A DNA stretch of 64,000 bases from Pelagihabitans pacificus (lineage in GTDB: Bacteria > Bacteroidota > Bacteroidia > Flavobacteriales > Flavobacteriaceae), in the NCBI RefSeq assembly GCF_009371985.2, contig NZ_VIKU02000004.1, positions 1-64,000 of the forward strand, given 5' to 3'. Shown piece after piece: positions 51,654 through 57,398 of the stretch; position 1 is the first letter of the stretch, and each line of letters begins with the position of its first letter. The notes under the pieces are model-generated. The model ran no database searches. It saw only the letters and a program-made list of their open reading frames with translations, and was not told the DNA's origin. The translations under genes were made by a program, and so were the position numbers.

Positions 51654-52586
51654 ATGAAAAAAATTGTCTTTACTCTGCTGTCCTTTTTTGTCATATCGAC
51701 CACGTTTGCACAGACACTGGAGGAACTGAAAGCTGCGAAAGCCGCAAAAAAGGATTCTATCAACGCCATTCAGGGAAGGGTAGATGCGCTTCAAGGACAG
51801 ATTGACGCGTTCCCCGGATGGAAAATAAGGGCTTTTGGAACCATTGGGGCGAATATTTCGAGTTTTAACAACTGGTATTTGCAAGGAACACCCAATAATA
51901 ATTCCGGTAACATCGGGGTAACGGTAAATGCCATCGCCAATCTTAACAAGGAGAAGTTTTTTTGGAGAAACTCGGCGAACGTTAACTTGCAATGGGTGAA
52001 ATTGGATGATAAGGATGATCCAAACGATAGCGATAGCTTTGACGGTACGACCGATGTCTTTAACATCACTTCTTTATACGGCTACAAGCTAAGTGAAAAG
52101 TTTGCCATCTCGGCCCTTGGCGAATATCGTACCTCTATCATAAACAACTTTAACAATCCAGGATATCTCGATTTTGGTATTGGTGCCACTTGGACCCCCA
52201 TTACCGATATGGTGGTCGTTATCCACCCCTTGAACTATAACTTTGTGTTCGCTGAAAATGATGCGGTATACGAATCTTCCGCTGGTGCCAAAATTGTGGT
52301 AGATTATACCAGACAAATTGGTAAAGTGAACTTTAAGACCAACTTCTCTACCTTTCAGAGTTATAAGAGTGGTGATTTGAGCAACTGGACATGGATCAAC
52401 TCTTTTGGGTATACTCTTTGGAAGGGAATAGGCCTTGGTTTTGAATTTGGATTAAGAGGCAATAAGCAAGAGACATTGGCCAATGCCTTGGCCCAGGAGC
52501 CAGCATTGACTCCGACCCCTACCTTTGATAATATAGACAACGAGACCCAGAGCTATTGGTTGCTTGGTCTAAACTATGCTTTCTAA
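51654..52586 (+). CDS. DUF3078 family outer-membrane-type protein
   Basis: 310 residues from the ATG at 51654 (MKKIVFTLLSFF), which gives a clean signal peptide ending TTFAQT. The mature part has a short helical region (EELKAAKAAKKDSI), then barrel-like strands (FGTIGANISSFNNWYLQG, WRNSANVNLQWVKL) and ends in YWLLGLNYAF with a terminal Phe. This is DUF3078. An outer-membrane barrel is likely. It closes the suf region and is followed 40 bp later by a strong bidirectional hairpin. Confidence 0.87.
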   Translation: MKKIVFTLLSFFVISTTFAQTLEELKAAKAAKKDSINAIQGRVDALQGQIDAFPGWKIRAFGTIGANISSFNNWYLQGTPNNNSGNIGVTVNAIANLNKEKFFWRNSANVNLQWVKLDDKDDPNDSDSFDGTTDVFNITSLYGYKLSEKFAISALGEYRTSIINNFNNPGYLDFGIGATWTPITDMVVVIHPLNYNFVFAENDAVYESSAGAKIVVDYTRQIGKVNFKTNFSTFQSYKSGDLSNWTWINSFGYTLWKGIGLGFEFGLRGNKQETLANALAQEPALTPTPTFDNIDNETQSYWLLGLNYAF

Positions 52587-52625
52587 AAGTTCTTTCTGAA
52601 AGAGTTGTCCAAACCAGCTAAAAGT

Positions 52626-52763
52626 AAAACGCCCCGACAGTCTCGGGGCGTTTTTTGTTAAGTAGGATTCGTTACATTTGGTTGCACAGTCAATAAAATC
52701 GAACTTGTAAGGTCATATGCAGATTTGGGCAAATCCAAACACTATAAACACTAAATCTTAAAT
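52626..52763 (-). ncRNA. Putative small RNA A (three-member family)
   Basis: Start is estimated from the -7 box at 52769-52777. The putative transcript of about 138 nt has no long ORF and ends in a 12-bp hairpin (arms AAAACGCCCCGA and TCGGGGCGTTTT, 52626-52654). Just before the hairpin lies GTAACGAATCCTACTT, shared in form with copies B and C. The hairpin has T-runs on both sides and also serves as plus-strand terminator for the DUF3078 gene. Existence as RNA is inferred from the shared layout; start and length are estimates. Confidence 0.6.
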
Positions 52764-52768
52764 ACAAA

Positions 52769-52834
52769 ACGAAGGTATAGGCAAATGAACGCAAGGCTAA
52801 ATTTTTGTTGTGAACGCTACGAAAGATGTTGTGA
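52769..52834 (-). promoter_or_regulatory. Promoter and 21-bp direct repeats of putative sRNA A
   Basis: On the plus strand TTGTTGTGA (52805-52813) and ATGTTGTGA (52826-52834) are exactly 21 bp apart. Three bases from the first is CTAAA (52797-52801, read TTTAG), and exactly 19 bp further TACCTTCG. The spacing is identical in all three copies. Pairs of 9-bp repeats 21 bp apart are the form bound by LytTR regulators. Confidence 0.6.
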
Positions 52835-52878
52835 AGTACGTTAAAATACGTGGTTTCATCGATGAAATACACTAAAAT

Positions 52879-52907
52879 AAGGGGTATTATCCGATTAGAA
52901 ACCCCTT
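52879..52907. other. Hairpin between putative sRNAs A and B
   Basis: AAGGGGT and ACCCCTT are perfect inverted arms around a 15-nt loop. It may back up the terminator of copy B or be a structural spacer. Confidence 0.35.
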
Positions 52908-52915
52908 TAAAATCA

Positions 52916-53022
52916 AAAGCCCCGACGTGGGTCGAGGCTTTCATTAAAGTAGGTTTGGTCTAATTTGGTTTGGTATTTCTTCCAGGTAAAGTATTGATCG
53001 GGTTTCGTGCCATCATTTAATG
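52916..53022 (-). ncRNA. Putative small RNA B (three-member family)
   Basis: Estimated at about 107 nt, from a start about 6 nt after the -7 box (53028-53036) to the hairpin at 52916-52941 (outer stem AAAGCC/GGCTTT, one mismatch, inner stem CGAC/GTCG), followed by TTTTGATTTT. The last part before the hairpin reads ACCAAACCTACTTTAA, nearly identical to copy C. Between promoter and this motif the sequence is not conserved with A or C, which suits trans-acting RNAs with different targets. Confidence 0.6.
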
Positions 53023-53027
53023 ACGAT

Positions 53028-53093
53028 GTAAACTTACTGCCGATTTCACTGTTTTCTAAATTATTGTTGTGACATACGCCAAGAATGTTGTGA
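53028..53093 (-). promoter_or_regulatory. Promoter and 21-bp direct repeats of putative sRNA B
   Basis: TTGTTGTGA (53064-53072) and ATGTTGTGA (53085-53093) are 21 bp apart; CTAAA at 53056-53060 (TTTAG read in reverse) lies 3 bp from the first, and TAAGTTTAC (53028-53036, minus strand) is 19 bp further. The layout equals A and C base for base in spacing. Confidence 0.6.
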
Positions 53094-53615
53094 AAAATAC
53101 CACTGGTCGGAATCCTCGTTGAACTGCAGGTCTAGTTTCTAATTTTTTGAGCCAATCACCGGATTCCGTTCTTGGCAGATGGATACCACGGCTTAATCTC
53201 GAGTGCCTTTTCAAAGGAATAACGGACTTTTTGAACCTGCGGTTTTCCTCATTGTTGGTTAACATAAATAACACCTTGATTCCTGCCCGTACTTCCAAAA
53301 AAACTCCTTCCGCCCCTTAGTACACCAGTATGAAATACGATTTTTCCCAACGAACCGTTCTTTGCAATCGGCCATGACGAACCTAACTCGGCTGGATAAT
53401 TTGATCTTATATCGATGGTGTTTTCATTTTGTAATACCACTCAATCGAAGAGCCGTGTATCACCCATAATTACAAAATGGCCGGTTAAACAAGGGTTAAG
53501 AACCGGATAATCCCATTTTGGAAAGTGTCATACCTTATTAACACAAAGAAGAAAATGTAATAGGGGTTGGGGTTGGGCGATCAATTAACGTTAACGGTGG
53601 GTTAACGGTATTCAA
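53094..53615. other. Gene-free stretch of about 520 bp
   Basis: No coding region is convincing; two overlapping minus-strand ORFs of 63 and 80 codons look random. CGGAATCC (53108) and GGATTCCG (53161) are inverted 8-bp arms. The stretch may be degraded DNA, or hold the upstream control region of the sensor kinase gene. Confidence 0.35.
53473..53520. promoter_or_regulatory. Long imperfect inverted repeat upstream of the sensor kinase
   Basis: CAAAATGG with CCATTTTG, and inside it CCGGTT with AACCGG, form nested stems (14 bp in all) with a bulge on one side. It lies about 160 bp before the histidine kinase start. GTTAAC sequences recur at 53585-53607. Confidence 0.35.
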
Positions 53616-53650
53616 TTGTTGGGCAAGACTTTGCCTATGTACTACTTTTG
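53616..53650 (+). promoter_or_regulatory. Promoter of the OmpR-type two-component operon
   Basis: TTG at 53616-53621 (two overlapping choices) and a perfect TACTTTTG at 53643-53650 are 21-24 bp apart. The ATG at 53680 follows 29 bp later. Confidence 0.5.
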
Positions 53651-53679
53651 GAGTGTTGGGTGTAAAACACCAGACCGTT

Positions 53680-55065
53680 ATGCAGAAAAAAATAAACATA
53701 TTGATAGCCACCGCCATAGCAACCTTGCTCGCACTGATCGGCATACAGGCCTACCTTGTTTACAATACCTATGAGCTTAAAAAGGATGCTTTTCTTAAGG
53801 AGACCAAAAAATCGATCGGGCGAATCGACGATGAGTCGGAAAGGGTCGTGACCACCAATGAAATATGGGCCCAGGAATTTATGGAGTTGCTTTGGCAATA
53901 CCGATTTGAAAACTTGAGCAAGGAAAGATTCGTTGAAGGGCTTACCAAAAACACCGATTCCCTGACAGGAAGCTATAATAGACTGTATAAAGAAGAATTG
54001 AAAAAAACCGATTTGGGGTATGATATCAAATTTAAAAAGAATATTTACTCCATTATCATCCTCGATTCTGTAGCCAACGATACCATGTTTCCTTTCGGGG
54101 ATAGAAAGCGATTGTTTATGCTAGGGGAAGATTTTGATGAAGACCAAGGGTACGACGTGAGTCAGGCTCGTTGGCAAACAGACTATACCAAGGTAGTGGA
54201 TGGTGAGGAAAAGACGGTAGAATTCCGTGTAGTAACTAGAGATCGGATGAATATTTCCGATTGGAAACGAATCGTATTAAGCAGAATGGCTATTCTCCTG
54301 ACAGGTTCTGTGCTGCTATTGCTCTTTGTGGTCGGACTGTTCTATTATTCGATTAAAAATCTGATCAAGCAAAAGAAAGTCGCCGATATAAAGACCGATT
54401 TTATCAACAATATCACCCACGAGCTAAAAACGCCTTTGGCTACTTTGGGCATTGCATCAAAAAGCCTTCATAAAAGGGAAATCCAAGAATCCCCCGAAGC
54501 TTTCAAGAATACCCTTGGCATCTTGGATCGGCAAAACACCCGACTTCAAAAGTTGATCGATCAGGTGATGACCAATAGTTTGGGCTCCGAAGATTTGGTG
54601 CTGCACAAAGAGCAGGTGATAGATGATGCCTATTTTAACAATTTGCTCGACGATTTCTCCCTTTCGGTTCAAAGCAAAAACCTGACAATCGACCGGCATA
54701 TTGAAAGTGAGGAAGTGGTCTTGAGGCTCGATACTTTTCTATTCACCACGGCCCTTTTCAACATTTTGGAGAATGCGGTCAAATACGGGAAAGAGTCTTT
54801 GGTACTGACCTTTACTACGCGATTGAGGAACAATCACTACGAAATTGTAATTGCCGATAACGGCATTGGAATCAACGAAAAACACCTGAAGTATGTTTTC
54901 GATAAATTTTTTAGGGTCGAATCGGGTGACGTTCATAATGTGAAAGGGTTAGGACTTGGGTTGTACTACACCAAACAGGTAGTAGATGCGCATAAAGGGA
55001 GTATCGAACTCGAAAGTGAACTTGGCAAAGGAAGCAAATTCAGTATCACTATACCGGTTAATTAG
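53680..55065 (+). CDS. Membrane sensor histidine kinase
   Basis: 461 residues from the ATG at 53680 (MQKKINILIA), after the promoter. Helix 1 is at about 6-27, a periplasmic domain of about 175 residues follows, and helix 2 is at about 200-222. The HisKA motif FINNITHELKTPLATLG carries H247; the ATPase domain shows NILENAVKYG, IADNGIGI and GLGLGLYYTKQVV. The periplasmic domain matches no family I recognise. It pairs with the regulator 6 bp downstream. Confidence 0.93.
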   Translation: MQKKINILIATAIATLLALIGIQAYLVYNTYELKKDAFLKETKKSIGRIDDESERVVTTNEIWAQEFMELLWQYRFENLSKERFVEGLTKNTDSLTGSYNRLYKEELKKTDLGYDIKFKKNIYSIIILDSVANDTMFPFGDRKRLFMLGEDFDEDQGYDVSQARWQTDYTKVVDGEEKTVEFRVVTRDRMNISDWKRIVLSRMAILLTGSVLLLLFVVGLFYYSIKNLIKQKKVADIKTDFINNITHELKTPLATLGIASKSLHKREIQESPEAFKNTLGILDRQNTRLQKLIDQVMTNSLGSEDLVLHKEQVIDDAYFNNLLDDFSLSVQSKNLTIDRHIESEEVVLRLDTFLFTTALFNILENAVKYGKESLVLTFTTRLRNNHYEIVIADNGIGINEKHLKYVFDKFFRVESGDVHNVKGLGLGLYYTKQVVDAHKGSIELESELGKGSKFSITIPVN

Positions 55066-55071
55066 GATATC

Positions 55072-55755
55072 ATGGCACACATATTATTGGCAGAAGATGA
55101 TTTTGATTTTGGCAGTATCTTAAAACAGTACCTCGAAATTCATGAGTACGAGGTCACTTGGGCCAAAGATGGTAAAGAGGCGCTGACACTGTTCCCCCGA
55201 CATTATTTCGATATCTGTGTATTCGATGTGATGATGCCCAAGATGGATGGCTTTAGCTTGGCCGAAAAAGTAATTGAAATCAACCCCGAAGTTCCCTTTG
55301 TATTTCTCAAGGCCAAAAAATTGAAGGAAGACCGTATCAGAGGCTTGAAGCTTGGCGCAGACGACTATATCGTAAAACCCTTCGAAGCGGATATTTTAGT
55401 GCTTCGATTACGAAATATTCTGAAGCGTACGCAACGCATTCAACCCAAAAAAGAAAAACTGCACAGTATCGGGGCCTATGATTTTGACACGGTCAACCAC
55501 AAGCTTCTATTTCAAGGAAGTGAACAACGCCTTACAGAAAAAGAGACGGTACTCATACAGTATCTCTACCAACATAAAAATACCATGATCAAGCGCGAAG
55601 ACCTCCTCAAAGACGTTTGGGGCAACGACGACTTTTTCTCCGGAAGAAGTATGGACGTATTTATAAGCCGCCTCCGAAAATACTTTAAGCAAGACTCATC
55701 AATTGCTATAGAAAGTGTTCGAGGAGTCGGACTCACGTTTAAAGTAAATCAATAA
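55072..55755 (+). CDS. OmpR/PhoB-family response regulator with altered switch residue
   Basis: 227 residues. The receiver has D9/D10, phosphoacceptor D52 (FDVMMPKMDG) and K102 (IVKPF). In the position where most regulators have a switch Thr/Ser (FLTAK-type), this one reads FLKAKKLKEDR (K80). The C-terminal winged helix (about 135-225) has LTEKETVLIQYLYQHKN and SRLRKYF. The Lys may shift the balance between active and inactive forms; this is inference. It is partner to the sensor kinase. Confidence 0.92.
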   Translation: MAHILLAEDDFDFGSILKQYLEIHEYEVTWAKDGKEALTLFPRHYFDICVFDVMMPKMDGFSLAEKVIEINPEVPFVFLKAKKLKEDRIRGLKLGADDYIVKPFEADILVLRLRNILKRTQRIQPKKEKLHSIGAYDFDTVNHKLLFQGSEQRLTEKETVLIQYLYQHKNTMIKREDLLKDVWGNDDFFSGRSMDVFISRLRKYFKQDSSIAIESVRGVGLTFKVNQ

Positions 55756-55786
55756 ATAGAGTTTATTCATCAAAAAAAACGAAAAA

Positions 55787-56254
55787 ATGAAAAATGTATT
55801 GAGTATCAGCTGTCTCGTGTTTTTATCCGTTTCCGGACTCTTTGCACAAACCAAGGAAAAGGAAAACACCTTTCTATTAGGGTTTAATATCGTGAAAGTC
55901 TACGATTTTGAATCATCGCCTAAGAGCAAAGGATTTTTTCTGGTCGATGTGTTCGAGGACGATTATCGTTTGAAGCTAACGAGAAAGACTTACAAGGTAA
56001 ATCTTGTATTTGACGAAGCCAGAAAAGAAGCAATACAAAGAATGGTCTCAAAGGTTTTGGATGGGGAAAAGCCCGTTGTTGGCTACGACCCGATGATCTG
56101 GAAGGGAACGACCCAAAACGGAGCCCCCATGTATGAAATTAAACTGGAAGGAAACAACCTAAAGATGCGGATATACCGCAAGCATATCGATTCGGATGGC
56201 TTTAGTGTAATTAATCGCTTAGGAACCGAATTTTTAAAGGAGATTAACAGTTAA
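55787..56254 (+). CDS. Hypothetical secreted protein, first of a paralogous pair
   Basis: 155 residues with a signal peptide (about 1-21, SGLFAQTKE). The mature part has DDYRLKLTRKTYKVNLVFDEA, then MIWKGTTQNGAPMYEIKLEGNNLKMRIYRK. The same order of elements (a 'W-K...G-x-x-YE-x-x-L-x-x-G-x-L-K' block) recurs in the next protein, so the two are distant paralogues. They follow the two-component genes by 32 bp and may be its regulated outputs. Confidence 0.7.
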   Translation: MKNVLSISCLVFLSVSGLFAQTKEKENTFLLGFNIVKVYDFESSPKSKGFFLVDVFEDDYRLKLTRKTYKVNLVFDEARKEAIQRMVSKVLDGEKPVVGYDPMIWKGTTQNGAPMYEIKLEGNNLKMRIYRKHIDSDGFSVINRLGTEFLKEINS

Positions 56255-56266
56255 AAAACGAAAATC

Positions 56267-56899
56267 ATGAGAATCATTGTCTATTTTTTATTGAGCATGT
56301 TGATAGGGATCATAGATGCCTATACGCAGGAAACAGAAACCAAAACCAAACAGACTACCACATCGAGCATATCGATTTCAGTGGACGACGACACTGGCTT
56401 TGTCGAAAAAAGCCGCACCTATTTTTCGATAAGCGATTCCGATGATACGTATCGGGTACGTTCCGATTTCCATAAATCAAAAACAACCAAGATACGTTCG
56501 TATTTGGCCGAAGAATTGGGCACTGAATATATGACCGCTTCGGGAAGCAGACAAAAATGGAAGCGCGAGTACGGAGGAGACACCGGCTATGAGGTAAGAT
56601 TGGACGAGGGTACGCTGAAAATCTATCTCGATAAGGAATTACTCTCGAGTGGCATGGTCAATAAATTCAAGACCATAACCCGGAATATTAAAAACTATGC
56701 CTCGGGAAAATCGGAGGAAAAACGTTTGGAAGAACAGCAAAAAAGAGAGGCCGAGCAAGTACAAAGAGAGGCACAACAAGCACAACGGGAAGCCGAAAGA
56801 CTCCAGCGCAAAGCGGAGCAGAAAATCCGGGAGGCCGAGCACTTACAGCGAGAGGCCGAACGTTTGAAACGTGAAGCCCAGAAGAAAAAGGATAGTTAA
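56267..56899 (+). CDS. Hypothetical secreted protein with charged coiled coil
   Basis: 210 residues. Signal peptide about 1-20. The middle (about 30-145) matches the previous protein in outline (WKREYGGDTGYEVRLDEGTLKIYLDK). Residues about 150-210 are a single Glu/Arg/Ala/Gln-rich helix of repeated EAE(R/Q)xQREA type, a likely coiled coil. An envelope scaffold role is possible; function unknown. A terminator follows, closing the operon. Confidence 0.72.
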   Translation: MRIIVYFLLSMLIGIIDAYTQETETKTKQTTTSSISISVDDDTGFVEKSRTYFSISDSDDTYRVRSDFHKSKTTKIRSYLAEELGTEYMTASGSRQKWKREYGGDTGYEVRLDEGTLKIYLDKELLSSGMVNKFKTITRNIKNYASGKSEEKRLEEQQKREAEQVQREAQQAQREAERLQRKAEQKIREAEHLQREAERLKREAQKKKDS

Positions 56900-56904
56900 A
56901 AACG

Positions 56905-56929
56905 ACCCCTCAAAACGGAGGGCTTTTTA
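56905..56929 (+). terminator. Intrinsic terminator of the two-component operon
   Basis: CCCTC and GAGGG (56907-56922) pair across a short loop and run into TTTTT. Confidence 0.6.
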
Positions 56930-56995
56930 AATAGTTGAATGATCTACTGTTTTTGTACTTAACTTCGATACAGGTGAATCAAGTTTGGATGCATA

Positions 56996-57151
56996 AAAAA
57001 ACCCCGACGGGGAGCCGGGGTTTTTTAAAGTAGGTTTGTTACATGTTGTACTGTTAAATGGTTATAAGCAAGTAGGTTAGTTGGTGTGTCTTTTTATTCA
57101 GCGTTTTCGGTTAAGCTCAAGGTGATTTGGGGTCAGCTTGGTTACTTAATT
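56996..57151 (-). ncRNA. Putative small RNA C (three-member family)
   Basis: Estimated at about 156 nt. The terminator hairpin (AAAAAAACCCCG with CGGGGTTTTTT, 56996-57026) has T-runs on both sides. The minus strand just before it reads GTAACAAACCTACTTT. Unlike A and B, a second copy, AACCTACTT, lies at 57070-57080. No ORF of note is on the minus strand. It lies 1.3 kb from the plus-strand two-component operon and upstream of no gene on its strand, so a free small RNA is the simplest reading. Confidence 0.6.
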
Positions 57152-57156
57152 ACACT

Positions 57157-57222
57157 GTAAATATAGAACGGAATGGGAAGGGGACTAAATTATTGTTGTG
57201 AACCTATCACAATCTGTTGTGA
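57157..57222 (-). promoter_or_regulatory. Promoter and 21-bp direct repeats of putative sRNA C
   Basis: TTGTTGTGA (57193-57201) and CTGTTGTGA (57214-57222) are 21 bp apart; CTAAA (57185-57189, TTTAG in reverse) is 3 bp from the first; TATATTTAC (57157-57165, minus strand) is 19 bp further. The same geometry as A and B. Confidence 0.6.
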
Positions 57223-57398
57223 AAAATACAAACGGTTCAATTTGTTCGACAAAGGGTAGCCACATGGAGGCAGTTTCTTAAAATCTTTTTTGCACAAAGG
57301 ATTGTAGCGACATCTTTTTATGCCCACGAAGGAGCATAAAAAATACAGCGGAAAGCCTGGTCTTCATGAGTCAATGAAGATGGGCCACTAATTTCTTT

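Follow-up and report, generated by a model that had tools for sequence, protein, structure and literature searches.

In Staphylococcus (AgrA-RNAIII) and in Clostridium perfringens (VirR with VR-RNA, VirT and VirU), a LytTR regulator binds paired direct repeats upstream of the promoter of a regulatory RNA. In Clostridioides difficile, the VirR-type regulator RgaR activates the sRNA SpoZ, of about 528 nt, through repeats 21 bp apart, with critical G's at -51 and -72 (PMC10602386). Little is known of the control of sRNAs in Bacteroidota, and for the FopS family of Bacteroides thetaiotaomicron a possible regulator is described as unknown (PMC11697453). In this study, we analysed a stretch of 64,000 nucleotides from the marine flavobacterium Pelagihabitans pacificus (NZ_VIKU02000004.1, positions 1 to 64,000, hereafter the window), together with the rest of its genome, the other 9 congeneric genomes and 249 genomes of the family. 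Three predicted sRNA genes of the window, A, B and C, share one promoter layout, and we consider it likely, although transcription and binding are unproven, that they are switched on together by a single LytTR sensor-regulator pair encoded elsewhere in the genome.

The pattern TTCACAACA-N13-TCACAACAA-N3-TTTAG matches exactly three times in the window, always on the minus strand (Table 1). No further match appears with up to 3 mismatches, and 100 dinucleotide shuffles gave none. In the whole own genome (4.56 Mb), the strict pattern with up to 3 mismatches gives these three sites plus one 3-mismatch site, against 0 in the reversed control. The two repeats are 21 bp apart, TTTAG follows after 3 bp, and a -7-like TAnnTT box starts exactly 19 nt after TTTAG in all three copies. 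CCTACTT lies just before a terminator-like hairpin in all three (3 matches, 0.05 expected); copy A reads AATCCTACTT rather than AACCTACTT. Mechanical open reading frames of 80-84 aa overlap the minus strand near A and B; however, the alignment of A shows many indels, so no gene is indicated.

Table 1. Coordinates of the features described in the window, with the observations on which each one rests.
Position	Strand	Feature	Basis
52797..52835	-	Operator and -33 element of sRNA A	Exact pattern match; PWM score 54.9
52770..52777	-	-7-like box of sRNA A, TACCTTCG	Sequence
52621..52766	-	Predicted sRNA A (about 140 nt, start inferred), convergent with the DUF3078 outer-membrane protein gene	Alignment of 18 sequences; RNA model R1 hit, E 6.8e-18 (this sequence is in the model)
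52722..52729	-	CCCAAATC motif in sRNA A	Sequence; in 56 of 110 family sites; more unpaired than the rest in 53 of 59 cases
52660..52666	-	CCTACTT motif of sRNA A	Motif search; more unpaired than the rest in 59 of 78 cases
52626..52654	-	Intrinsic terminator of sRNA A	Terminator scan; consensus fold of 18 sequences
53056..53094	-	Operator and -33 element of sRNA B	Exact pattern match; PWM score 58.2
53028..53036	-	-7-like box of sRNA B, TAAGTTTAC	Sequence
52908..53024	-	Predicted sRNA B (about 115 nt); CCTACTT at 52947-52953; terminator hairpin about 52942-52916	Sequence, hairpin seen by eye; B-type relatives among the genus loci
57185..57223	-	Operator and -33 element of sRNA C	Exact pattern match; PWM score 68.2
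57157..57165	-	-7-like box of sRNA C, TATATTTAC	Sequence
56993..57153	-	Predicted sRNA C (about 160 nt); CCTACTT at 57028-57034 and 57070-57076; CCCAAATC at 57124-57131; terminator 57016-57000	Sequence; terminator scan; alignment of 7 sequences
53680..55755	+	Local histidine kinase and OmpR-type response regulator, an optional insert	Pfam; response regulator ortholog in 6 of 10 genus genomes
51657..52586	+	DUF3078 outer-membrane protein gene, conserved neighbour of sRNA A	Present in 15 of 15 A-type loci

The preliminary description of the locus had proposed that one regulator controls several sRNAs with a common 3' end, and the comparative evidence supports the proposal of one regulator. The geometry recurs in 10 of 10 congeneric genomes (reversed control 0) and in 30 of the 249 family genomes. 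Of 110 family sites found by the repeats plus TTTAG, 101 have TAnnTT exactly 19 nt on and 8 more have it at 20 nt. In the loci examined, the repeats were not absent from relatives that keep the flanking genes. Two points require amendment. The shared 3' part is only a short CCTACTT motif plus a terminator on otherwise different bodies, and the battery is larger than three: the own genome has four further sRNA genes of a second family, here named X, and some coding genes behind a similar promoter.

The candidate regulator is a LytTR response regulator located at G000:C12:97740-98480 (G000 being the own genome and C12 a contig), among genes read as menaquinone synthesis and beside a histidine kinase. 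Its domains are Response_reg and LytTR (PF04397, E 1.5e-17), and those of the kinase are TPR, HisKA_2 and HATPase_c. The regulator was found (E <= 1e-80) in 51 of the 249 family genomes, and all 30 operator-positive genomes lie within the 51 (hypergeometric P 2.4e-25). The X core (<=2 mismatches) occurs in 45 of the 249, again all within the 51 (P 2.2e-43). These P values were not corrected for phylogeny and overstate independence if the regulator-positive genomes form one clade. Moreover, 21 of the 51 regulator-positive genomes show no operator at <=2 mismatches, and LytTR paralogs in these genomes were not excluded.

Position provides further evidence of the association. A regular expression for the gaps behind the regulator gene found the promoter in 33 of 78. 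A 70-nt PWM trained on 94 sites, none of them inside the tested stretches, scores >=8 in 87 of 94 stretches behind the regulator gene (85 of 92 distinct loci), in 0 of 94 reverse strands and in 0 of 282 Markov shuffles; 7 of the 94 gaps score under 8. In the 80 named loci, 115 of 117 hits lie within 1 kb behind the gene on its strand, although the prefilter used in this survey misses weak sites: locus L185 shows none there but scores 13.1 without it. Loci L175 and L176 carry 4 and 5 operators between regulator and kinase. We also approached the question from the RNA side. Of the 30 loci returned for an sRNA-A model, 25 of 25 in regulator-positive genomes have an operator and 0 of 5 in regulator-negative genomes do, although 11 of the 25 genomes supplied model sequences. 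At E <= 1e-6 the model finds 16 genomes, all regulator-positive, and the first regulator-negative hit (genome G014) appears at 4.9e-6. At E <= 0.01 it finds 75 of 249 genomes, including many regulator-negative ones, which we take as chance.

Family X has 3-5 matches at <=3 mismatches in each of the 10 genus genomes, against 1 match in the reversed control, and 67 of 67 copies examined, picked by core sequence, have the promoter. A hairpin and a T-run are seen by eye, and 25 nt of the core are exact in at least one copy in 44 of 45 genomes. A search with the X complement ACACTATATGAAAATG (<=2 mismatches) showed that ACATTGTATGAAAATG recurs in 6 of 10 genomes, where it lies at the start of one CAP-family lipoprotein gene. 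In these 6 congeners, X can pair 21-23 consecutive nt across the start codon, whereas shuffles reach at most 16. However, the CAP match was not found in the own genome at <=2 mismatches over 16 nt. Of the other hits that were fetched, L419 and L420 are starts of an S4-like ribosomal protein gene (named by eye), L421 and L422 are not starts, L423 (in genome G005) is a start with 20 nt, and L424-L426 (own genome) reach 13-14 nt, within the shuffle range of 13-14.

For A, B and C, no target is supported. The search TTAAGTAGGTN{0,20}ATGA in 10 genomes gave 4 matches against 12 in the reversed control, and the same-sense CCTACTT in 5 of 6 CAP leaders does not fit a simple pairing seed. Evidence from RNA structure is limited to the terminator, the only part that folds consistently, where 1 of 7 pairs changed on both sides; AACTTAACC and ATAGTGTT are not unusually exposed. 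The only Rfam match in the window is Flavo-1 at 57287-57366, outside the sRNAs, and 8 loci of the regulon gave 0 matches. Literature searches showed no description of these RNAs or of this operator (papers consulted: PMC9723704, PMC10602386, PMC4227749 and PMC11697453).

Taken together, these observations are best explained by sRNA genes that are each switched on by a phosphorylated LytTR-family response regulator, which would bind the two 21-bp-spaced direct repeats immediately upstream of the -33 element of a Bacteroidota-type promoter. We give this reading a probability of roughly 0.8, with transcription, direct binding, activation and every effect on targets inferred rather than observed. 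The same regulator would drive family X, probably its own kinase gene, and a few other genes. The RNAs are inferred to act post-transcriptionally, X most likely by pairing across start codons, with the CAP-domain lipoprotein mRNA as the best candidate, and A, B and C through the CCTACTT and CCCAAATC motifs exposed in predicted folds.

An alternative that concerns only the mode of action, and does not touch the regulator claim, is that A, B and C are decoys. CCTACTT would then be a binding site for an RNA-binding protein or another RNA, drawn away from mRNA leaders that carry the same motif, perhaps in the manner of CsrB/RsmZ. CCTACTT occurs in the same sense in the CAP lipoprotein leader, with one or two copies in 5 of 6 congeners, it is preferentially unpaired, and the complementary pattern is not enriched near start codons. 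However, no binding partner is known, the motif is short, and the leader copies lie next to the X pairing site and may serve X instead; we regard this possibility as doubtful. A still wider view, which we put forward only tentatively, is that the LytTR/TPR-kinase pair of the menaquinone locus forms an undescribed global RNA-output signalling system of the Maribacter-Zobellia-Arenibacter group. Its main output would be a battery of two kinds of sRNA working together on the same envelope mRNAs, X by pairing across the start codon and A, B and C by titrating a factor that reads CCTACTT in the leaders, joining respiratory or envelope state to wide post-transcriptional control.

It is unlikely that another regulator restricted to the same clade, either a LytTR paralog or an AraC-type protein, binds the repeats and that the menaquinone-locus LytTR gene only travels with them. 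AraC-type proteins may also use 21-bp direct repeats beside the -35 region, and the clade was not resolved phylogenetically. However, the promoter lies directly behind the LytTR gene in most distinct loci, and an operator-like site (3 mismatches, PWM 22.4) stands before its kinase gene in the own genome. It also appears improbable that the elements are promoters of short translated peptides or mRNA leaders. Although some sites precede coding genes, such as a GNAT gene in ten genomes and a PAS kinase in four (judged by N-terminal likeness), and one own-genome site precedes two tandem short open reading frames of about 32 codons, A, B and C end at terminators before any gene, the A alignment is rich in indels, and the conserved core of X holds no ATG.

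The adjacent histidine kinase and OmpR-type response regulator lie between copies B and C in the window and in 5 of the other 9 congeneric genomes. However, four congeners (G002, G004, G007 and G009) have no ortholog, with best hits of 39-42% identity, but keep the operators, and OmpR-type sites may usually be 10-11-bp repeats rather than 21 bp; we therefore consider local control very unlikely. Finally, mobile or repetitive (MITE/REP-like) copies without regulatory function, which the multiple copies per genome and the identical X cores at distant loci might suggest, are disfavoured because only promoter and short motifs are shared on differing bodies, sRNA A stays in synteny across genomes of several genera, and occurrence is tied to one regulator, although terminal repeats were not searched for separately.

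As in the AgrA and VirR systems, predicted promoters of this kind lie next to the regulator and kinase genes; that they are driven by these is inferred. The present system differs from these in phylum, promoter type, kinase (TPR + HisKA_2) and repeat sequence, and it has several short dispersed sRNAs rather than one long RNAIII. The repeat spacing is the same as that described for RgaR, which is associated with one sRNA. Rfp18 of Flavobacterium psychrophilum is a conserved flavobacterial sRNA (PMC9723704). The FopS/GibS sRNAs are multicopy short sRNAs of Bacteroidota with a single-stranded 5' part and a terminator, acting near start codons, but FopS promoters are described as plain sigma-ABfr, possibly with an unknown regulator (PMC11697453). 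The system described here comprises one candidate regulator, one operator, predicted sRNA genes and one candidate target in culturable marine genera (Maribacter, Zobellia, Arenibacter and Cellulophaga), and it would extend LytTR-to-RNA wiring, which is known to us only from Gram-positive bacteria, to a distant phylum with several sRNA families under one switch.

The three minus-strand sites of the preliminary description, which had claimed three putative small RNA genes with an identical promoter layout, are present as stated. Allowing up to 3 mismatches, the strict operator pattern (two direct repeats followed by TTTAG) occurs three times in the window and 0 times in 100 shuffles, and it occurs four times in the 4.56-Mb Pelagihabitans pacificus genome (the three sites plus one 3-mismatch site), compared with 0 in the reversed control. 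Each of the three sites is followed after exactly 19 nt by a TAnnTT box (TACCTTCG for A, TAAGTTTAC for B and TATATTTAC for C) and later by CCTACTT and a terminator-like hairpin, although the hairpin of B was recognised by eye.

All 10 genomes of the genus hold 2-3 such sites at <=2 mismatches, whereas the reversed control gave 0. Most of these sites lie in one syntenic block that consists of the DUF3078 outer-membrane protein gene, sRNA A, sRNA B (not in all), a variable insert, sRNA C and HflX; however, one site of the congeneric genome G009 lies elsewhere, and further genes can sit between sRNA C and HflX. In the window, the insert contains a histidine kinase, an OmpR-type response regulator and two ORFs without a Pfam match. 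In the window and in the stretches L029, L031, L033, L034 and L035, the slots between these sRNA genes hold two-component genes, ORFs of 1326 or 1923 aa, or nothing, between fixed flanks, and the region looks like an insertion-prone site framed by sRNA genes. The local OmpR-type regulator cannot be the shared regulator, because an ortholog (83-100% identity) is present in only 6 of 10 genomes, and the other four have just 39-42% paralogs and still keep operators.

At <=2 mismatches, the operator occurs in 30 of 249 family genomes, and the reversed control occurs once, in one genome. We retrieved 56 stretches around these sites and combined them with ten stretches from the genus; after the removal of duplicates and of sites with less than 150 nt downstream, 110 sites with <=3 mismatches remained. 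TAnnTT starts 19 nt after TTTAG in 101 of these sites and 20 nt after it in 8, although the box was not used for selection, and within 240 nt CCTACTT is present in 68 and CCCAAATC in 56. sRNA A, which was recognised by its 5′ part, lies beside the DUF3078 gene in 15 of 15 loci. Some sites precede coding genes, namely a GNAT gene in ten genomes (based on N-terminal likeness, with only one locus, L098, scanned with Pfam) and PAS kinases in three (only locus L120 scanned). Moreover, in five genomes (loci L098, L111, L116, L122 and L126) an sRNA site of this type lies near genes read by eye as succinate dehydrogenase and CoA-transferase, with another site close by, before a GNAT gene in three of them, which is a possible link to respiration.

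In locus L101, one of the family stretches, a response regulator gene lies immediately upstream of four operators. Its ortholog in P. pacificus (72% identity) has a REC + LytTR architecture, and the downstream kinase is TPR + HisKA_2 + HATPase_c. A search of the same draw of 249 genomes for this regulator hit 53 genomes at E <= 1e-55, of which 51 were hit at E <= 1e-80 and two had 43% paralogs. Every one of the 30 operator-positive genomes is among the 51, and none of the other 198 has the operator. The hypergeometric P is 2.4e-25, but this value is not corrected for phylogeny and the regulator-positive genomes may be one clade; in addition, LytTR paralogs were not excluded, and 21 of the 51 regulator-positive genomes show no operator at <=2 mismatches. 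In the 16 loci examined, the regulator gene follows a menA-like gene in 16 (with a UbiA match for the P. pacificus copy) and is followed by the TPR kinase and a menC-like gene in 15; menF-, menD- and menE-like genes are found in 12-14 and a menB-like gene in 4, all named by eye. The gap between regulator and kinase is 383-917 nt in 14 of these loci and about 1750 nt in locus L176.

To determine whether the promoter is positioned near the regulator, a 70-nt weight matrix was built from 94 sites with TAnnT at the right place; L101 and L140, which adjoin the regulator, were left out, and no training site lies inside the tested stretches. The matrix scores >=8 in 87 of 94 stretches behind the regulator gene, in 0 of the 94 reverse strands and in 0 of 282 Markov shuffles (best -3.2). 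Two pairs of stretches are duplicates (L178/L275 and L181/L260), and 85 of 92 distinct stretches pass; the seven stretches that fail are L184, L259, L262, L295, L321, L323 and L326. In 80 named regulator loci (589 kb; the best 80 of 406 confirmed), which come from organisms including Maribacter, Zobellia, Eudoraea, Kriegella, Pricia, Arenibacter, Cellulophaga, Euzebyella and Ulvibacterium, 115 of 117 hits lie within 1 kb behind the gene on its strand. In the 64-kb window, only A, B and C pass (54.9, 58.2 and 68.2).

The gap between regulator and kinase also holds a unit with TTTTTTCATTTTCATATAGTGTTCTCGTAAAAGAG and a terminator, which we call X. A 23-nt stretch of X matches 3-5 times (<=3 mismatches) in each of the 10 genus genomes, with four exact copies in P. 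pacificus and 1 match in the reversed controls. A 25-nt stretch at <=2 mismatches is found in 45 of 249 family genomes, is exact in at least one copy in 44 of them, and gave 0 in the controls; all 45 genomes are within the regulator-positive 51 (P 2.2e-43), and the regulator-positive genomes without X are G038, G068, G085, G104, G231 and G243. Of 67 distinct X copies in the 60 loci returned, which were picked by core sequence alone, 67 score >=8 for the promoter matrix, whereas a stricter regular expression found the promoter in 47 of 67. In four of the regulator loci (L179, L182, L186 and L187), a further unit with CCCAAATCTTA and a terminator-like hairpin lies before the kinase gene and is possibly a third sRNA type.

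A test starting from the RNA was also performed. A covariance model of the last 90 nt or so of sRNA A (18 sequences) hits 16 of 249 genomes at E <= 1e-6, all of which are regulator-positive; 11 of the 16 had supplied model sequences and five had not. The best hit in a regulator-negative genome is 4.9e-6 (G014), and at E <= 0.01 75 genomes are hit. Of the 30 loci returned, 25 come from regulator-positive genomes and all 25 show an operator, whereas the 5 from regulator-negative genomes show none.

In the P. pacificus genome, a relaxed operator-plus-box pattern gives 13 sites, against 0 in the control. These sites comprise A, B, C, four X, the kinase gene beside the regulator, a PAS-type histidine kinase gene of the kind seen in the loci L102, L120 and L135 of three other genomes, which is a recurrent coding member of the regulon, and four less certain sites. 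The latter lie before an ECF-sigma-like gene, before two tandem short ORFs, before a secreted-protein-like gene, and 565 nt before an RNase R-like ORF; the genes were named by eye, without a family search. The two tandem ORFs have about 32 codons and products that resemble each other, and CCTACT stands just before the second start; they are possible small peptides in the same regulon.

Locations of the regulator gene and of individual features (G000 is the P. pacificus genome and G005 a congener; locations outside the window are given as genome:contig:positions)
Feature	Location	Strand
LytTR response regulator gene	G000:C12:97740-98480	
Region with variable slots between the sRNA genes	window 53100-56900	
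Flavo-1 RNA (RF01705)	window 57287-57366	+
L408, operator-like site before two tandem short ORFs	G000:C16:73525-73586	
L411, operator of the PAS-type histidine kinase gene	G000:C18:28957-29018	
L423, locus with a possible second X target	G005:C48:37300-39100	

Among the hits of a search for the X complement in the genus, one sequence, ACATTGTATGAAAATG, recurs in 6 of 10 genomes (G001, G002, G003, G006, G007 and G009). In all six, it is the start of an orthologous 158-161-codon gene with a lipoprotein-like signal (MKM...C), and the two copies scanned belong to the CAP family (E 5.9e-12 and 8e-13). X can pair with 21-23 consecutive nucleotides over the end of the leader and the start codon, and the two departures from the perfect complement that are common to all six keep the pairing as G-U pairs. 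Shuffles of the same leaders reach at most 16, and the duplex energies are -26.2 to -31.9, compared with shuffle minima of -16.6 to -20.1. This gene is a candidate target of X, although the P. pacificus genome has no such match at <=2 mismatches over 16 nt. No operator stands within 500 nt upstream of the gene. The leader carries CCTACTT in the same sense as A, B and C, in one or two copies in 5 of 6. In one congener, X can also pair with 20 consecutive nt at the start of another gene, a 305-codon membrane-protein-like ORF (L423), which is a possible second target.

LytTR proteins bind two direct repeats next to the -35 region. In C. difficile, RgaR needs G's at -51 and -72, 21 bp apart, to activate the sRNA gene spoZ (PMC10602386), and AgrA binds two repeats upstream of P3/RNAIII, with unusually long promoter spacers (PMC4227749). 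In the present case, the repeats fall at about -48 and -69 if transcription starts 4-5 nt after the box. We therefore propose, on comparative evidence alone, that the sRNA genes are activated by the phosphorylated LytTR regulator, with feedback on its kinase gene; X would then block translation starts. For A, B and C, two modes of action remain possible. The first is titration of a factor that reads CCTACTT in leaders, and the second is pairing through CCTACTT and CCCAAATC, which are more unpaired than the rest of the RNA in 59 of 78 and 53 of 59 cases, respectively, whereas AACTTAACC (7 of 25) and ATAGTGTT (2 of 13) are not. The negative seed search (4 hits against 12 in the control) and the same-sense motif in the CAP leader lean towards titration.

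No Rfam family matches the RNAs. A Flavo-1 RNA (45.6 bits against a threshold of 42), for which one study reports no clear function (PMC9723704), lies directly behind the promoter of sRNA C. Our literature searches showed no account of this operator, regulator or RNA set. However, LytTR regulators that drive regulatory RNAs are known, namely AgrA, VirR and RgaR, and multicopy sRNAs are known in Bacteroidota, as in the case of FopS (PMC11697453).
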